Shown here in pieces: positions 2,221-21,698 of a DNA stretch of 26,257 nucleotides. Made by a program: the position numbers and the translations under genes. The stretch is from a virus. The number at the start of each line of letters is the position of its first letter. Position 1 is the first letter of the stretch. The stretch is from positions 1-26,257 of IMG/VR virus record IMGVR_UViG_3300010400_000050, one strand, 5' to 3'. The notes under the pieces are model-generated. The model was not told where the DNA came from. It did no database searches and was given only the letters and a program-made list of their open reading frames with translations.

Positions 2221-2499
2221 ATGGGCGATAAGCCGCAGCACGCCTCAGACCCATGCTACTTATGCCGGGCGCCGGCTCCACCGGAGGGGTGGCAGGCCGC
2301 CTGCCTGACCGGGGTCGGACTGACGCGCCCGCCCGCGGTGTGCTCCTGTTGCAGCGAGAGGGTCCGCCAGAACGTGGGCAAGATCCCGCGCGCGGACCGC
2401 AAGGAGCTGGAGGACAGGATGAGGGCCCGCGGCGTGCCCCCCGACCTACAGGTGCGCGCCGTGCTGGTCGCATGCTGGCACGGCGCGGTCGGGGTCTAG
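2221..2499 (+). CDS. Small Cys-rich, possible zinc-binding protein
   Basis: This protein of about 92 aa is read from ATG 2221; an upstream TTG at 2164 would add 19 residues but has no Shine-Dalgarno. Cysteines fall as CYLC (residues 12 and 15), C28, then CSCC (41, 43, 44), a spacing suggestive of a small zinc ribbon or treble clef. A charged helix (residues about 45-65) and C83 follow. No family is assigned. It is a plus-strand island between minus-strand units. Its TAG at 2497-2499 shares CTAG with the stop of the lipoprotein gene on the other strand. The start is uncertain because no strong ribosome site is visible at 2221. Confidence 0.62.
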   Translation: MGDKPQHASDPCYLCRAPAPPEGWQAACLTGVGLTRPPAVCSCCSERVRQNVGKIPRADRKELEDRMRARGVPPDLQVRAVLVACWHGAVGV

Positions 2500-2996
2500 C
2501 GGACCCAGGCGCGCTCCGCCGGGGCGAGCTCCCAGCCCTCGCCCCCGTTGCCCATAAGCCAGCGATCGCTGGACTGGGTGCCGTGGTGGCGCAACCCCAG
2601 CGCGTGCCCGATCTCGTGTGTGACCGTCTGGTCATTGCAGTCCCAGATCGTGATCTGCGCGCTTTTCATCGTCTGCGCGAAGTGCACCCACTCCGTGTGG
2701 CCCAGCGCGCGCGGGTTTTGCTCGTCCAAGGCGCACGTCAAGCTGATCGTGCCGTCGTGCATCTCTCGGGCTTCCGGGCCGCCGTAGGTCGGCACGAGAT
2801 AGGGCGCGAACTCTACCCAGTAGTCCAGGGAGTAGTCGATGCTTTCGAAGCACAGCGCGCACGACTCCGAATCGATCAGGAGAGGCACCGGTCTCTGGAA
2901 AGGCCGCCAATGCGAGGAGGCGTCGAACGGTCCGGCCTTGCACGCCGTGACGGCCAGCAGGCACAAACAGGCGAGTGCGAGGTGCGCGAATTTCAT
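2496..2996 (-). CDS. Lipoprotein with metzincin-type zinc protease motif
   Basis: This 166-aa protein starts with a basic residue and a hydrophobic stretch ending in a lipobox, VTAC, with C19 as the expected lipidated residue. The mature part contains HEIGHALGLRH (127-137), a full HExxHxxGxxH metzincin signature with three histidine ligands and catalytic E128. A Met follows at 148 (WLMGN) where a Met-turn would lie. Other cysteines (46, 49, 88, 120) could form disulfides outside the cytoplasm. Known matrixin-like proteases with this motif cleave proteins. The ATG overlaps the amidase stop (ATGA at 2993-2996), so it belongs to the lysis cassette, in the slot often used by an outer-membrane spanin lipoprotein. 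Its substrate and any role in lysis are inference. Confidence 0.85.
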   Translation of the reverse strand: MKFAHLALACLCLLAVTACKAGPFDASSHWRPFQRPVPLLIDSESCALCFESIDYSLDYWVEFAPYLVPTYGGPEAREMHDGTISLTCALDEQNPRALGHTEWVHFAQTMKSAQITIWDCNDQTVTHEIGHALGLRHHGTQSSDRWLMGNGGEGWELAPAERAWVR

Positions 2997-3595
2997 GGTC
3001 GGGCCTCGTTCACCAGGTCCAGGATGCCCCGGCCCGGGTCGGTTTTCTCGTCGGAGATCTCGTAGTGCCCGAGCACGCCGCGGAACTCCGCCAGCTCGCG
3101 CGCCGTAGCCGTGTCCCCGCCCGCTCGAGCGCGGAATGGGAGCCCCCAGGCCGCGCACACCGCGCGGGTCAGCGCGAGCGCAGAGCGGGTCTGGGGCGCC
3201 GTGAAGCTCGCGTGCCGGACGCGCTGGCCGCGGATTGAACACTCCGCAAGCGTGCGCCCGTCGGCCGCGTCCTTGGCGGTCAGCACCGCACCGGCCGGGT
3301 TCACGATCTCGACCCCAATGCTCCAGCTGTTCGCGGGGCCGGCATGGCTGCAGCGGCGGTCACAGTCCGCGAACTGCCAGACAGTGCCGTCTGCCTCCAC
3401 CACGAAGTGCACGGACAAGCCGCGCTCCCGTAACGTCTCGAACACGCCCGCGGCGCCGCGCCGGCCACCGGTCCAGTGCAGCACCACCGCGCGCGTCTCG
3501 GCGCGGCGGCCAAGGGCCTGGAACTTGAAGTCCCGCGTCGCGCGCACCGGCGCCACGCACTCGACCTCGACCCCTCTGGACAGGATGTAGCTCAC
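2993..3595 (-). CDS. Endolysin: N-acetylmuramoyl-L-alanine amidase (Amidase_2 type)
   Basis: This 200-aa single-domain protein cuts the amide bond between MurNAc and L-alanine in peptidoglycan. Its zinc ligands are visible in the usual order: H40 in VVLHWTGG, H177 in GVLGHYEIS and D186 in KTDPGRG, with K184 in the position of the T7 lysozyme lysine. E96 lies in the conserved IGVEIVNP strand. There is no signal peptide, so release should depend on a holin. GTG 3595 overlaps the stop of the XhlA-like gene (GTGA at 3592-3595) and its own stop overlaps the lipoprotein start. No separate cell-wall-binding domain is seen. Confidence 0.93.
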   Translation of the reverse strand: MSYILSRGVEVECVAPVRATRDFKFQALGRRAETRAVVLHWTGGRRGAAGVFETLRERGLSVHFVVEADGTVWQFADCDRRCSHAGPANSWSIGVEIVNPAGAVLTAKDAADGRTLAECSIRGQRVRHASFTAPQTRSALALTRAVCAAWGLPFRARAGGDTATARELAEFRGVLGHYEISDEKTDPGRGILDLVNEARP

Positions 3596-12804: not shown

Positions 12805-13343
12805 CGGCCGCGAGCCAGGCGATCACGAAACGCCTGGTTCTCCCCGTTCAAGGCCTCGATCTCCTGTTCGACCGGGTCCACCGGACGCGGCTTGGTTGCC
12901 TCCGGCTTGGCCAAGGTCACTTGCGGTGCATGAAACTGGATGAACTTGACCACGATCACCCACACACCGTCCTCGACCTGGTCCGGCTGGCCGATCTCCT
13001 CCACGCCCAGGGCCACGATCCCGAGGTCCTCCAGGATCGGGTGCGCTGCGCGCAAGTACCCGCCGGCCGGCGTGACGCCACCGCGCGAGCGCGGCAGGCG
13101 CTTGATCATCTGGCTCCAGACGTGCCACGCATCCCACTGCTCCGCGGTGGTCAGCCGGAACTCTGCCACAGGGTGGGCCAGCCGGCGCTTGCGGAAGATC
13201 GAAAACCCGCCGGTCTGGCCGTAGCCCCCGCGCTCGAGCCACTCCCTCATGTCCGCCGCGTTCTTGATGGTGCACAGGCCGGGGCTGGGCTTGCCGTCCA
13301 GCTCCAAGACATCGACCGGGTTGCGGAAGGGATTGAAGGGCAT
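12801..13343 (-). CDS. Tail/baseplate protein encoded after the tape measure
   Basis: This 180-aa protein starts at ATG 13343 overlapping the tape-measure TGA by one base. Its pattern (NPVDVLELDGKPSPGLCTI, a Gly-rich ERGGYGQTGG, then HPILEDLGIVALGVEEIGQ and DGVWVIVVKFIQF followed by a PVDPVE tail helix) occurs in many phages in the same place between tape measure and hub. It may bridge tube end and hub, like DNA-circulation/hub-adaptor proteins. Exact function is unknown; location and conservation pattern support a structural role. Confidence 0.75.
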   Translation of the reverse strand: MPFNPFRNPVDVLELDGKPSPGLCTIKNAADMREWLERGGYGQTGGFSIFRKRRLAHPVAEFRLTTAEQWDAWHVWSQMIKRLPRSRGGVTPAGGYLRAAHPILEDLGIVALGVEEIGQPDQVEDGVWVIVVKFIQFHAPQVTLAKPEATKPRPVDPVEQEIEALNGENQAFRDRLARGR

Positions 13344-15280
13344 CACGCACCCCGGGGCGCCAGAGGCGCGGCAATCTGAAGGGCCAGACGCTCGAACACG
13401 CGCGCCAGCCCGCGCTCCAGGTCGGCGGTCATGCCCTCCAGGTCCGGCGCGGCCGAGGTGATCGTCACGCCTCCGAGCTGGATCACGATGCTCGGCCCGG
13501 CGGCGGGCGCGGACGCAGCGGGCGCGCTGGAGGTGCCGCCCTCCGCGTCCTTGGGCGGGCGCACCGCGACCATGTTGTCCACGGCCTTTTGGGCGTCCGG
13601 CTTGCCGCGCTCCACGCCCTGGGCCACGCCCTGGGGCAGCGTCTGGCCCAGCTTCGCAAACTCCTTGCTCGGGCTCGCGATGCCCAGGGACGCCTTGAAA
13701 GACTTCATGGCCTGCGCGCCCAGGTCGCGCATGGCGTTCACGACCCAGGACGCGCCGGACTTCACGCCGCGCACGATCCCGGACACCACGTTCTTGCCCC
13801 ACTCCACGGCCTGGTTGCCCAGGTCCAGCAAGACGGGGTAAAGCTCCTTGCCTAGCTGAACCAGCTGGTAGCCTACGGCCACAGCCGCCGCGAACGCCGC
13901 GGCCAACAGCAAAAACGGCGCCGCAGCCACGGCCCCCGCCACCGCAAGCGAGGCCGTGGCCGTGACCGCGCCCCAGATGAAGGGCACCGCCAAGGAGAGC
14001 GCACCTACGACCAGCGCGCCCGTTGCCGCGAACGCCGCGCCGACCGCGGCCACGGCCGCCTCACCGGCCCAAAGCGCGGCCGTGGTCATGTCCAGGTTCG
14101 CGGCGAACGAGCCGCCGAACGTCTCCCGGAACCACAGCCGCAGACGCAAGATCACGTTCTCCACACGCAGCGCAGCGATGATCATGCCCTGGAAAAACCG
14201 GCGCACGTAGAGCCCCGCACCCTCCGACCCATCGATCAGGGGCTGGAACAGGCCATCGATCATGCCGCGCAGCGCGCGCCCGGAAGCCGTGTTCAGCGTG
14301 AAAAGCTCGGTCACTTGCTTGAGCCCGCGCAAGAGGGGCTCCACGTTCAGGCCGCCGAACAGCGACGCGAACCCCTCCTTGAGCTTCTTCGTCTGGACCG
14401 TCCAGGACAGCATCTGGCGCGCCGCGATCGGCCCGAGCCGCGCGCGGATGTCGTCCGCAAGGCCATTCACGGACCCGCCAGCCAGTGAGATCGAGGCCGC
14501 GAGCCCGGCGAAGCGCGACGCCGCGGCAGACCCTTGCGTGGAGGCCTTGATCGCCACGGCCTCGAGGGCGTCCGCCAGGTTCTGGCCGCGCAGGCCCGAC
14601 CTGTAGAGCTGTTCCGTGAACCCCGCGACCTGGTCACGTCCGATCGCCACGCCGGAGGCTACCCGATCGGTCGCGTCTTGCAGCTCATGAGCGCTCCCCG
14701 CGGCCGCGCTGTACCAAAACCGGAGCTTGGTCAGGCCCTCCAGGCGCAAAAGTTCGTCGCGCCGCGCGTCCGCCTGCGCCACGCCGTACGCGGCCAGGGC
14801 CAGCGCGCCCGCGACCGTGGCCGCGGTCAAGGCAACCACGGCGGCGCTGATTGCCACGACGCCGGCGGCAATGGCTCCGGACTTCAGGAGCCCGGACAGA
14901 CCCCCGAGCTTGTCCAAGAGGCCCCCGAGCGGGCCCGGAGTGCTCTTGGCGGCCTCCCGGAGTCGCTCTACAAGGCTCAAAACCGGCTTTCCTTGGCCCG
15001 GGATGCGCCCGAACGTCCCGCCCAGGTTCACGTAGGCCGCTTGCGCGTCCGCGATCGACTGCTTTTGCGCCGCGATCTTGGTCCGGAGCTCCTGGGCGGC
15101 CTGGATGTTCACGACTTTGGCCGAATTCAGGGTCTTGAACGCCGCTTCCATGCCGCGCAAGGCCTTGGTGTCGGCCTCGATCTGCGAGCGCAGGCCGCGC
15201 AAGGCCTCGGACGCGCCCTCAGCGCTACCGCTGACCCCGTCCTGTAGCTCGACCTTATAAACCGCGGTATTATCAGCCAC
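13343..15280 (-). CDS. Tail tape measure protein
   Basis: This 645-aa protein starts at GTG 15280. An N-terminal coiled coil (about 20-85) is followed by a hydrophobic region (about 133-168), helical linkers, and a second long Ala/Val-rich hydrophobic stretch (about 415-480), ending in a Gly/Pro-rich tail. Tape measures set tail length by stretching through the tube at roughly 0.15 nm per residue, so a tail of about 95-100 nm would be expected. The hydrophobic segments may help DNA cross the inner membrane. It follows the frameshifted tail-assembly chaperone, whose extended stop (15273-15275) lies inside this gene. Confidence 0.92.
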   Translation of the reverse strand: MADNTAVYKVELQDGVSGSAEGASEALRGLRSQIEADTKALRGMEAAFKTLNSAKVVNIQAAQELRTKIAAQKQSIADAQAAYVNLGGTFGRIPGQGKPVLSLVERLREAAKSTPGPLGGLLDKLGGLSGLLKSGAIAAGVVAISAAVVALTAATVAGALALAAYGVAQADARRDELLRLEGLTKLRFWYSAAAGSAHELQDATDRVASGVAIGRDQVAGFTEQLYRSGLRGQNLADALEAVAIKASTQGSAAASRFAGLAASISLAGGSVNGLADDIRARLGPIAARQMLSWTVQTKKLKEGFASLFGGLNVEPLLRGLKQVTELFTLNTASGRALRGMIDGLFQPLIDGSEGAGLYVRRFFQGMIIAALRVENVILRLRLWFRETFGGSFAANLDMTTAALWAGEAAVAAVGAAFAATGALVVGALSLAVPFIWGAVTATASLAVAGAVAAAPFLLLAAAFAAAVAVGYQLVQLGKELYPVLLDLGNQAVEWGKNVVSGIVRGVKSGASWVVNAMRDLGAQAMKSFKASLGIASPSKEFAKLGQTLPQGVAQGVERGKPDAQKAVDNMVAVRPPKDAEGGTSSAPAASAPAAGPSIVIQLGGVTITSAAPDLEGMTADLERGLARVFERLALQIAAPLAPRGA

Positions 15281-15871
15281 TTGGAGAGGCCCTCAGACGG
15301 CGTAGGCCGTCCGCAAACAATAGCGCCCCGGCGAACGCCTGGGCAAATTCGCGGTCGGACAGCTCCCTGGCCGTGGCCCCGAACAAGGCTAGGAGGCACT
15401 CGGCCGCGGGCCAATCGTCCTCCAGTGCCTCCCTTCGGAGCGCTAGGATTTTCCCGAGGTGGCCTTGGCGCGCACGCCCGCCAGCTCGCTAGCCTTGGAG
15501 GCGAGCGGGGCCAGGATGCCCGGGAAGTCCTCGGCCAGTTGCTCGAACACGTCGCGCGACGGGTGCACCAGGCAGGTAAGCACCAGCTCCTCGCACACCG
15601 CCACCGTGAGCTGGGGCGCGTCCGCGAACCGCCGGAACAGCAGATGGTTCGGGCGCTTGATGATCACCACGCCGCGCGGCGTCTTGTAGGTCTCGATCTG
15701 GTCCCCGACGCGCCCGTAGGTGCGCTCCGCGGCGTCCACGGCCTCCGCGTCCGCGAGCTCCATCCTGGCCTTGGCCAGCGCGGCCTCCGGGTCCTCGTGC
15801 CGTTGCTGGCGTGCTTCGGCCAGCTCTGCGAGGCGCGCGCGCACCTCGGCCAGGGTCTTGGGTTCTGACAT
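15273..15871 (-). CDS. Tail assembly chaperone, -1 frameshift extended form (gpGT-like)
   Basis: Reading from ATG 15871, the ribosome can slip by -1 at GGGAAAA (15449-15455) two codons before the TAG of the short form. The -1 frame then stays open for 58 codons to TGA 15273-15275, giving a product of about 199 aa. The extension (ILALRREALEDDWPAAEC and on to DGLRRLRASPSG) is helical and acidic/hydrophobic, like T domains that bind the tape measure. Without the slip, the bases 15281-15442 would be a non-coding gap, unlike the rest of this packed operon. In lambda and P2 a similar slip makes gpGT or E+E'. Efficiency cannot be judged from sequence. Confidence 0.82.
15392..15432 (-). promoter_or_regulatory. 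RNA stem-loop downstream of the frameshift site
   Basis: On the coding strand GGAGGCACT (15432-15424) pairs perfectly over 9 bp with AGTGCCTCC (15400-15392). The 23-nt loop holds a second small stem, GGCC-CGC-GGCC (15412-15402). The spacer from the slippery heptamer is 16 nt, longer than the usual 5-9 nt. A smaller stem CTCC-GAAG-GGAG lies closer and competes for the same bases. Confidence 0.5.
15443..15871 (-). CDS. Tail assembly chaperone, short form (gpG-like)
   Basis: This 142-aa protein starts at ATG 15871 with AGAAGGA as ribosome site. A charged N-terminal helix (EVRARLAELAEARQQRHED) is followed by a conserved-looking core with RGVVIIKRPNHLLFRRF and CEELVLTCLVHPSRDVFEQLAEDFPG. That core pattern is common in gpG/gpE-type chaperones that hold the tape measure before tube polymerisation. 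It sits between the tube gene and the tape measure, the standard place. It ends at TAG 15443-15445 unless the ribosome slips just before. Confidence 0.87.
   Translation of the reverse strand: MSEPKTLAEVRARLAELAEARQQRHEDPEAALAKARMELADAEAVDAAERTYGRVGDQIETYKTPRGVVIIKRPNHLLFRRFADAPQLTVAVCEELVLTCLVHPSRDVFEQLAEDFPGILAPLASKASELAGVRAKATSGKS
15449..15455 (-). promoter_or_regulatory. Programmed -1 frameshift site GGGAAAA
   Basis: On the coding strand the frame reads TCG GGA AAA TCC TAG. The heptamer G GGA AAA fits X XXY YYZ with X=G, Y=A, Z=A, so both tRNAs can re-pair as GGG AAA after a -1 slip. It lies in the chaperone gene immediately before the stop and opens the 58-codon extension. Confidence 0.82.
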
Positions 15872-15916: not shown

Positions 15917-16396
15917 CTACGGCAGGCCCTGGGTCGAGTCGAACAGCGTCTTGCCGTTGCGCATGATCCACATGCAGTCCAACGTCAGTTCGTCCTGGAG
16001 CGGGTCCGCGGACTCCTCGTGGCCGGACGCGTCCTCCGCGATCTTGCAGCCGCGAATGCGCACGTTCATGGGGATGTCCCCCAGTTCGATGAACTGCAGA
16101 TTCAGGTCGAACTCTGGGATCCCGATCGACTTGCCGTCCGGGGCCGCGATCGCGTACTGGCGCCGGATGGCCTCGATCGTGGACTTCGGGCCCTTGAGCT
16201 TGACGGGGTCCGTGGTGTACTTGCCCGCGGAGCGCCCGCGCGGCGCGTGCGCGCGGCCCATGCCCGGCAGCTTCACGCGCTCGATCTTGTCCCCGTACGC
16301 GATCGAGGTCAGGCCGTGGTAGCGGACGCCGCCCAGCTTCGCGATCGTGGACGACCACGAGTGCATGGCGCCATTGATACGTACTTGATCGGACAC
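15917..16396 (-). CDS. Tail tube protein
   Basis: This 159-aa protein starts at GTG 16396 with a strong AGGAGG ribosome site. It opens with VRINGAMHSWSSTIAKLGGVRYHGLTSIAYGDKIE, a beta-rich region, and continues to a DGKSIGIPEFDLNLQFIELGDIP segment and a C-terminal sheet ending in WIMRNGKTLF. This pattern and size fit tube proteins of the Mu gp40/P2 FII group, which stack as hexamers inside the sheath. It lies directly after the sheath gene, as in most contractile phages. Confidence 0.85.
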   Translation of the reverse strand: MSDQVRINGAMHSWSSTIAKLGGVRYHGLTSIAYGDKIERVKLPGMGRAHAPRGRSAGKYTTDPVKLKGPKSTIEAIRRQYAIAAPDGKSIGIPEFDLNLQFIELGDIPMNVRIRGCKIAEDASGHEESADPLQDELTLDCMWIMRNGKTLFDSTQGLP

Positions 16397-16408: not shown

Positions 16409-17878
16409 CTAGGCGGCCTGGACCTGGAGCGCGGGGTTGAAATACCCGAGGTCGAAGTTGATGAATTCGACGTACGCCAGGGGCACGATTCGCCCTTGGC
16501 CGGTCAGAGTGCGCGTGGACAGCAGGTTGTCCGTGCGGGAGATTGAGACGAACTTGCCCCCCTCGAACCCGCCGCCGGAGGCCTTCGGGACCGCCATGAG
16601 CACGGACCGAAGCGCGCCGTCGGCACCGTCCTCGATATCGAGGGCTTCCTGCTCCAGAATGAACCCGGACTTGGAGTCCACCAAGACCGGCTTGTTGAGC
16701 CGGCCCATGAAGTAGACACGAAGCGTCTCACGCGCCAGGTTCATGACGCGGATGTGGGGCACCAGGAAGAAGTCCGAGCCGGGCGCCGAGAACAGGCGGG
16801 GCCGGTTGACGTACACGCCGCCGTAGCCGTCGTGCGTGCGGAGGACCGTGAACCGGTCATCATCCAGGCCCGGGTTCAGGCTCTCATCGTGCTCGTCCGC
16901 GTTGCCGTTCGCGTCACGGACCGATACACCAGGCAGCGCGCCCAGCGTCACGTCCGCCGTATCGATCTCGTCCGAAACCGCGCCCTCGCGGGCTGCGATC
17001 GGCCAGCTCGCGGGCCGGCGGTACTTGCGGCCCGGGTTCGGCCCCGAGCTGGTCAGCTTGCACGCGCCCGCGCACAGGTCCCCGAACACCGTGGTCTTGG
17101 ACGAGAAAATGCCCTGGAGGACCGTGCGGTAGGCAGACTCGGACTCACCCACGTTGGGCATACGCGCGTTGCCGATCCAATACTTCGGCTTGGTCGCGGA
17201 CGAAAGGGCCTGCATTTTGAGCTCGATCGCGTCGAACGCGGTCGCGTCGATCGGTCCGACGATATGCACCTCGCGCCAGTTGCTCGTGGTGCCGACCAGC
17301 GCGGCCAGCGCGTCCGCGAGCTCCGTGGCGTTCCAGTTCGGCGCCGTGGTGCGGCACGAAACGCGGTCGCCAGCGATGAGCGTGCCGGCGGCAAAGTCGA
17401 TGTTCAGGCCGCCGGTGCCGGGGAACACGAACGTGTTCGCCGTCCCGAGCGCCGTGATCGGGGACAGCACGCGGCCGCCGTCCAGGCTCCACTGGAACAT
17501 GATGCCGGCCGTGCCGACGGTGCCGCCCGTGGTCACGATGAAATAGGGCTCGTAGTCATCGTTCGGCGCGGTCGTGTCGAGCGTGACCACGCTGGTGCCC
17601 GTCACGGACGTGACCAGCGTGCCGGGCAGGCCGACCACCGAGTTTCCGGTGCGCACCAGCAGGATCGGCCGCTTGTAGGTCTCGATGTACGCGCACGCGT
17701 ACTCCACCAGCGGGCCGGCTCCGAACGTCGCGATCACGTCCTTGGTGCGGGCGAACGCGGCCGGCGTGTTCAGCGGGCCGGAAGTGGCCGTGCCCACGGC
17801 CGTGTGGATCTTGTCGCCGGGGGGCAGGGTGCCCAGCGCCCCGTCGATCATCTGGATATTGACGGCCGGTTGGCTCAT
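16409..17878 (-). CDS. Tail sheath protein (DUF2586-like)
   Basis: In this 489-aa protein, an N-terminal arm and strand pattern (VNIQMIDGALG, then a GTATSGPLNTPAAF segment) leads to an inserted beta domain (about 85-175). A core follows with NWREVHIVGPIDATAFDAIELKMQAL-type alternation and a C-terminal domain with RTHDGYGGVYVNRPRLF, SDFFLVPHIRVMNLA and VEFINFDLGYFNP. This layout fits sheath proteins of the Mu-like/DUF2586 group, which contract to push the tube into the cell. ATG 17878 is 43 bases after the previous stop. Size is typical for a mid-sized sheath. Confidence 0.88.
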   Translation of the reverse strand: MSQPAVNIQMIDGALGTLPPGDKIHTAVGTATSGPLNTPAAFARTKDVIATFGAGPLVEYACAYIETYKRPILLVRTGNSVVGLPGTLVTSVTGTSVVTLDTTAPNDDYEPYFIVTTGGTVGTAGIMFQWSLDGGRVLSPITALGTANTFVFPGTGGLNIDFAAGTLIAGDRVSCRTTAPNWNATELADALAALVGTTSNWREVHIVGPIDATAFDAIELKMQALSSATKPKYWIGNARMPNVGESESAYRTVLQGIFSSKTTVFGDLCAGACKLTSSGPNPGRKYRRPASWPIAAREGAVSDEIDTADVTLGALPGVSVRDANGNADEHDESLNPGLDDDRFTVLRTHDGYGGVYVNRPRLFSAPGSDFFLVPHIRVMNLARETLRVYFMGRLNKPVLVDSKSGFILEQEALDIEDGADGALRSVLMAVPKASGGGFEGGKFVSISRTDNLLSTRTLTGQGRIVPLAYVEFINFDLGYFNPALQVQAA

Positions 17879-20981: not shown

Positions 20982-21698
20982 TTACTTGGCCGCCTGGGCC
21001 GTCTGTGGCACGGCCACCGGGGCACCGAGCACCAACTTGGTCGCGGTCCGCTGAACGCCGCGCGACTCCATGGCCACCAGGCCCATTTGGATGTCGAGCT
21101 GGGCTCCGATGTCCGCATCGGCCGGGGTCTGTGCGGGCGCCGCGGCGCTGACCGGCTGGGTCGCGGGCACGGTCGTGGCCGTGGCGGCCGGCTTGGCCCG
21201 CCTGGGCTTGGGGATGCCGGCCAAGATCTCGCGCACCTCTGCGGCGGGCTTACCGGACAAGGTCCGGCGTAGCTCGGGGCTGATGTCCGGGCGACCGTCC
21301 AGCAGCGCGCGGCGCTTCTCCCCGTCCAGCTGGGACGCGAGCTGGCGCTGTCCCTTGGCCAGGGACTCGACCTGACGGGCAAGCCCGCGCGCGGTCGTGC
21401 CGCTCACTCGGCCGGCGCGCGCACCGCGCGCATCCTTGCCCTTCTTCGGGGGCGGGGCGTCCTCGTCCTCGTCGTCCGACTCCGCGGCCGCCTCGTCCTC
21501 GTCCTCGTCGTCCGACTCCGCGGCCGCCTCGTCCTCGTCCTCGTCGTCCGACTCCGCGGATTCCTCGTCCTCGTCCGACTCCGCGGCCGGCGCGCTCTCC
21601 GCGCTCAGGGCCAGGAGCTCCTTGCGCGCCGCGGCAGCGTCCGGGCCTCCGGCCTTGATGGTGGCGCGCAGCGAAGCGATCATTTCGGCAAGAGTCAT
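20982..21698 (-). CDS. Nested scaffold protein (in-frame internal start)
   Basis: ATG 21698, codon 254 of the protease gene, is preceded by GAGG about 8 bases upstream (minus strand GAGGAAAAGCCC), a good Shine-Dalgarno. The product would be 238 aa: helix (TLAEMIASLRATIKAG), acidic repeats, helix with RQVESLAKGQRQLASQLDGEKR, and a C-terminal capsid-binding end. It lacks the protease. Lambda C/Nu3 and Mu I/Z use the same nesting. Inference from signal and domain limit; the product itself is not seen. Confidence 0.65.
   Translation of the reverse strand: MTLAEMIASLRATIKAGGPDAAAARKELLALSAESAPAAESDEDEESAESDDEDEDEAAAESDDEDEDEAAAESDDEDEDAPPPKKGKDARGARAGRVSGTTARGLARQVESLAKGQRQLASQLDGEKRRALLDGRPDISPELRRTLSGKPAAEVREILAGIPKPRRAKPAATATTVPATQPVSAAAPAQTPADADIGAQLDIQMGLVAMESRGVQRTATKLVLGAPVAVPQTAQAAK

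Follow-up and report, generated by a model that had tools for sequence, protein, structure and literature searches.

It is very probable, judging from the sequences compared here, that a programmed -1 ribosomal frameshift yields two tail-assembly chaperones from one start codon in the virus that we studied. Most ribosomes would terminate at a TAG codon and release a 142-aa G-like protein, and a minority would slip one base back on the heptamer G_GGA_AAA and produce a G-T fusion of ~199 aa. We place this frameshift, by its sequence features, as an unannotated member of the known lambda G/GT kind. The window, that is, the whole stretch of DNA analysed, is an IMG/VR virus record (IMGVR_UViG_3300010400_000050) of 26,257 bases with a G+C content of 68%. 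A preliminary description of this sequence had located the split gene at 15273-15871, with GGGAAAA in register near the stop; these coordinates hold, with one sense codon (TCC) before the TAG.

Tail genes and the split chaperone frame

On the minus strand the window encodes, in order, a terminase, Portal_Mu, an S49 protease, a Mu-like major head protein, a DUF2586 sheath, a tube protein, the 142-aa ORF, a tape measure protein and baseplate J (Table 1). The head of this virus is Mu-like (Pfam matches to Portal_Mu, E 3e-40, and Mu-like_gpT, E 4e-5), but its tail, with a PF10758 sheath, is not that of Mu. The chaperone ORF sits between the tube gene and the tape measure, as in the lambda G/GT kind, and the order of sheath, tube, chaperone, extension and tape measure is constant across relatives and named phages, with a tape-measure homologue coming after the extension in the relatives too. 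Elsewhere in the window, a 36-bp tandem repeat (21458-21576, 3.3 copies, 96%) lies in the S49 protease gene, where it encodes an acidic ESDDEDEDEAAA repeat within the scaffold-like C-terminal half, and an ORF at 2496-3242, which adjoins an amidase (2993-3595), carries a weak zinc-metalloprotease motif, HEIGHALGLRH (Reprolysin_5, E 8e-5, below the cut-off).

Table 1. Positions of the tail genes and frameshift features in the window, and of the corresponding extensions in other phages
Feature	Position	Strand	Basis
Tail sheath, DUF2586 (PF10758)	16409..17878	-	Pfam E 1e-22; phrog_907 tail sheath
Probable tail tube protein, directly upstream of the chaperone ORF	15917..16396	-	Homologue at the same place in relatives and named phages
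Predicted zero-frame tail-assembly chaperone (G-like), 142 aa, ATG to TAG	15443..15871	-	ORF; 57 homologues aligned; AlphaFold; PDB matches
Candidate slippery heptamer G_GGA_AAA	15449..15455	-	X_XXY_YYZ register checked (TCG GGA AAA)
Zero-frame stop TAG	15443..15445	-	One sense codon (TCC) after the slip codon
Predicted -1 frame extension (T-like), 58 codons + TGA (15273-15275)	15273..15449	-	Homology, purifying selection
Tape measure protein, 645 aa, GTG start	13343..15280	-	PHROG tape-measure matches, best E 2e-19
Separately annotated extensions (Mx4, MMP7, Riverbug, pippi8-1)	L027:7245-7433, L026:6182-6331, L025:6223-6315, L030:5039-5167		
Sister-group +1 (or -2) loci	L025 ~6150, L026 ~6166, L109 ~6167, L110-L114, L116		

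The 3' end of the chaperone ORF reads ACC TCG GGA AAA TCC TAG, and past the slip the -1 frame reads ILALRREALEDDWPAAECLLALFGATARELSDREFAQAFAGALLFADGLRRLRASPSG, followed by a stop. The claim that a 58-codon extension fills the gap up to the tape measure proved exact: the extension ends at 15273 and overlaps the tape-measure gene (GTG start 15280) by 8 nt. Upstream, a stop ~40 nt before the slip bounds the -1 frame, and from that stop to 12 codons into the extension this frame contains no ATG, GTG or TTG in the window. The heptamer GGGAAAA occurs once on the two strands of the window, against 1.8 expected in shuffles; since this count does not exceed chance, GGGAAAA alone proves nothing, and the evidential weight lies in its register, its position and, above all, its conservation.

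Among PDB entries in Foldseek, the AlphaFold model of the chaperone (pLDDT 92) is best matched by an uncharacterised Bacillus protein, 3fgx (prob 1.00, E 0.004), and by 2ob9, the chaperone for tail assembly in HK97 (prob 0.90-0.97, E 0.01-0.02); these fold matches are moderate (TM 0.3-0.7), with none at E <= 0.001. Several annotated tail assembly chaperones are among the viral-library structure matches, at weak scores, and none of the Pfam TAC families scored above the cut-off with the chaperone, one family member reaching E 0.09 to Phage_TAC_7. The extension is modelled as three helices (pLDDT 84.5), and alone it matched nothing useful in Pfam or Foldseek. The short protein is predicted to fold like known tail-assembly chaperones, in agreement with its position and with the split frame; its identity as a tail chaperone is supported by this predicted fold and by the genes around it (DUF2586 sheath, tube and tape measure).

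Conservation of the -1 frame among relatives

When the chaperone itself was the query, neither named phages nor viral contigs gave a relative; because this protein is too diverged for such a search, the sheath served as the query instead. In this way 23 and then 80 viral loci were collected, plus one MAG contig; among bacterial genomes, scanning yielded a single close MAG contig, assigned to Actinomycetota, and one Meiothermus. Every forward frame of the collected loci was searched with a chaperone profile and an extension profile, and both were present in 62 distinct loci after removal of duplicates, comprising the window, viral contigs and one bacterial MAG. The homologous extension lies in the -1 frame, free of stops, in all 62 loci and never in frame 0 or +1 within the clade, and no relative carries the two parts fused in one frame. 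In 16 close pairs, which are not all independent but are uniform in direction, dN/dS is ~0.04-0.27 in the -1 frame, against 0.5-2.3 and >2 in the other two frames of the extension, and the differences between close pairs at codon positions 1/2/3 number 120/58/331. These results indicate that purifying selection acts on the extension in the -1 frame, and the conservation of this frame in relatives, which had been suggested as a check, is borne out; together with the gene neighbours and the predicted fold, it supports the reading of the locus as a tail-chaperone frameshift.

Predicted slip site, zero-frame stop and alternative explanations

A canonical heptamer is present in 46 of the 62 loci (GGGAAAA in 38, lambda's GGGAAAG in 1 and AAAAAAA in 7), and the remaining sites are NGCAAAA, NGAAAAA, CTCAAAA, CGGAAAA and GGGGAAA. 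The preliminary description had named -1 frame stops or a lost heptamer in relatives as evidence against a frameshift; no relative has such a stop, but the heptamer is changed in these 16 loci, 15 of which retain A_AAA and all of which keep the frame. Only the GGGAAAG and GGGGAAA loci lack A_AAA. At the slip codon 61/62 loci have AAA, against 118/549 (21%) of the Lys codons in the gene body, and the Gly before it is encoded by GGA in 40/41 cases, against 47/414 (11%) in the gene body. On the sheath tree the XXX half shows repeated loss, with at least 10 changes; in this tree the row of locus L099 is unreliable because the wrong ORF was probably picked. At locus L118 (~5775) the extension, which lies in the -1 frame, comes without an obvious slippery site (GTG GAA GAA CTG TAG).

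Both Z_ZZN tetramers and X_XXZ_ZZN heptamers have been described as -1 motifs, A_AAA being the weakest of six clearly active tetramers in E. coli (PMC4066793); since A_AAA alone is a weak shifter there, the 16 non-canonical relatives would need stimulators. The zero-frame stop directly follows the slip codon in 48 loci and comes one codon later in 14; the mean slip-to-stop distance in the SEA-PHAGES set is 26 nt (PMC10885494). An adjacent stop occurs in 15/16 non-canonical and 33/46 canonical loci (p 0.09, a statistic that ignores relatedness), and the link of non-canonical sites to an adjacent stop is only suggestive. The SD-like signal is strongest immediately before the heptamer (mean duplex -6.8 kcal/mol, most of the gene being at ~-1 kcal/mol), and GGAG or GAGG precedes the slip site in 47/62 loci, where 36.7 +/- 3.0 are expected from synonymous resampling; the excess across the family is modest, amino acids account for much of the signal, and the window lacks an SD-like motif at the distance from the slip site where one usually lies. 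RNA structure downstream of the slip (z -1.01 +/- 0.19, against -0.47 +/- 0.07 in controls) is likewise only modestly above controls, by ~0.5 z.

The zero-frame stops are TAG in 42 loci, TAA in 19 and TGA in 1, against a background in which TGA terminates 358/476 (75%) of the other long ORFs and 39/62 extensions, and the combination AAA TGA is used at the slip site in 0/62. One possible reason for avoiding UGA directly after AAA is that AAA TGA puts an ATG in the -1 frame, and selection against a free extension is a possible cause of the avoidance. The bias is seen also where the stop is one codon later, in loci that the creation of an ATG does not cover, and there it may come from the residues of the extension.

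Tandem tRNA slippage is established for X_XXY_YYZ sites. We infer that ribosomes slip at G_GGA_AAA in this manner, in which case tRNA-Gly would move from GGA to GGG and tRNA-Lys from AAA to AAA. A joint reading of the features of the family, which we hold tentatively and would sooner doubt than adopt, is that the slip is coupled to termination, with the XXX half dispensable, UGA excluded and the direction switched in Thermus and Meiothermus phages. The Lys-tRNA on A_AAA would slip with a UAG or UAA codon standing in the following site and an upstream SD as aid, and the XXX half could then be dispensed with; UGA would be excluded because AAA UGA would give an AUG in the -1 frame and hence a free extension; and in the Thermus/Meiothermus branch the same gene would have switched to a +1 slip on UUU_C.

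Among the alternatives to a programmed frameshift, it is improbable that the extension is a separate small gene with its own start, translated by reinitiation after the TAG or by SD-driven initiation at the AUA or AUC after AAA. The SD-like sequences just before the slip site in the 47 loci would suit such a gene, low-level AUA initiation behind an SD has been reported in E. coli (PMC4066793), and the extension has its own entry as a hypothetical protein in some GenBank records (Mx4_p58, MMP7, Riverbug), but ATG, GTG and TTG are absent nearby in the window and in 36/62 loci, and the window is without an SD. Further, the first codon of the extension is not conserved as a start (ATA in 48 loci, ATC in 10, and also AGT, ACC and AAG), the zero-frame stop that would create an ATG is never used, and the fixed GGGAAAA/A_AAA would be left unexplained. 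With start codons missing and the first codon not conserved, we reject independent initiation.

Less probable still is transcriptional slippage in the A run, which would make a shifted mRNA in place of a ribosomal slip: the 6-7 consecutive A of some relatives (AAAAAAA in seven loci) would allow it, but the run is no longer than AAAA in the window and in most relatives, and the GGG that is conserved in codon register is not needed by such slippage. A Mu-type -2 reading was also rejected, the extension being in the -1 and not the +1 frame in 62/62 loci. The chance that an indel, through decay or misassembly, has split what was a gene in one frame is negligible, as nothing but the split frame favours it and an identical split in 62 distinct loci, with purifying selection, refutes it for the family.

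Named phages and known frameshifting chaperones

In Myxococcus phage Mx4 the gap that precedes the tape measure is filled by a -1 extension, at A_AAA_AAA, and the Winoviridae Flavobacterium FPSV-S27, pippi8-1 and Winogradskyella Peternella_1 carry one in the same gap, at A_AAA_AAG. These four phages share with the window the sheath, the tube and a chaperone with a -1 extension before the tape measure, a DUF2586 sheath being annotated in pippi8-1 and Peternella_1, but their heptamers are unlike the G_GGA_AAA of the window, and the chaperone and extension of the Winoviridae, too diverged, gave no profile match. In none of the four are the chaperone and the extension annotated as a joined gene, and the literature searched yielded no account of a frameshift in Mx4. 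The preliminary description was right that the extension is overlooked in gene calls: in GenBank the T half is either absent or, as in Mx4, MMP7, Riverbug and pippi8-1, a separate hypothetical protein.

In a sister group consisting of Thermus phage Riverbug, Meiothermus MMP7, a Meiothermus MAG and six viral contigs, the homologous extension lies in the +1 frame, and TTT C stands where the +1 homology begins in 9/9 loci. The natural reading of this sequence would be a +1 slip of tRNA-Phe from UUU to UUC; a -2 shift is an alternative with which these loci are also compatible.

These results add an unannotated group of contractile-tailed, Mu-like-headed phages to the known frameshifting chaperones and correct the gene calls for these phages. 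The depth of the alignment makes it possible to inquire into the division of a bacterial -1 signal into essential parts (A_AAA near the stop) and replaceable ones (XXX, SD), and with the +1 sister group it offers a natural series on the evolutionary change of shift direction within a homologous chaperone. The novelty is limited, because a -1 shift within GGGAAAA has already been reported in Microbacterium phage Bush (PMC11749239), the Mu shift is -2, and tailed phages are known to have variants of all three kinds, -1, -2 and +1 (PMC5009743). Bush and other actinobacteriophage chaperones have the heptamer and direction seen here, but Bush is a siphovirus, unlike the window virus. Pseudomonas aeruginosa Mu-like phage PaMx73, with a predicted -1 shift at T_TTT_TTC (PMC4378225), resembles the window virus in its -1 chaperone shift and Mu-like genome, and differs in its siphovirus tail, its heptamer and the 43 codons before the stop. 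Mu gp41/gp42 are alike in the Mu-like head genes, the contractile tail and the overlapping chaperone frames, but the shift here is -1, with a PF10758 sheath, and that of Mu is -2; the earlier label of a Mu-headed myovirus therefore stands for the head and is refined for the tail.

A close parallel in arrangement is with lambda G/GT (G_GGA_AAG), in the place before the tape measure, in the short chaperone with a -1 extension and in the near-identical heptamer. No sequence similarity to lambda was found, AAA stands here in place of lambda's AAG, the stop comes 0-1 codon after the slip, and the tail is contractile. Binding to the tape measure is, in lambda, a property of gpG and of the G portion of gpGT, and the T portion binds the major tail protein (PMC5009743). 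By analogy we infer that the short and long forms act as chaperones like gpG and gpGT, in which case the G part would coat the tape measure, the T part would recruit tube subunits, and the ratio of short to long form would therefore matter.
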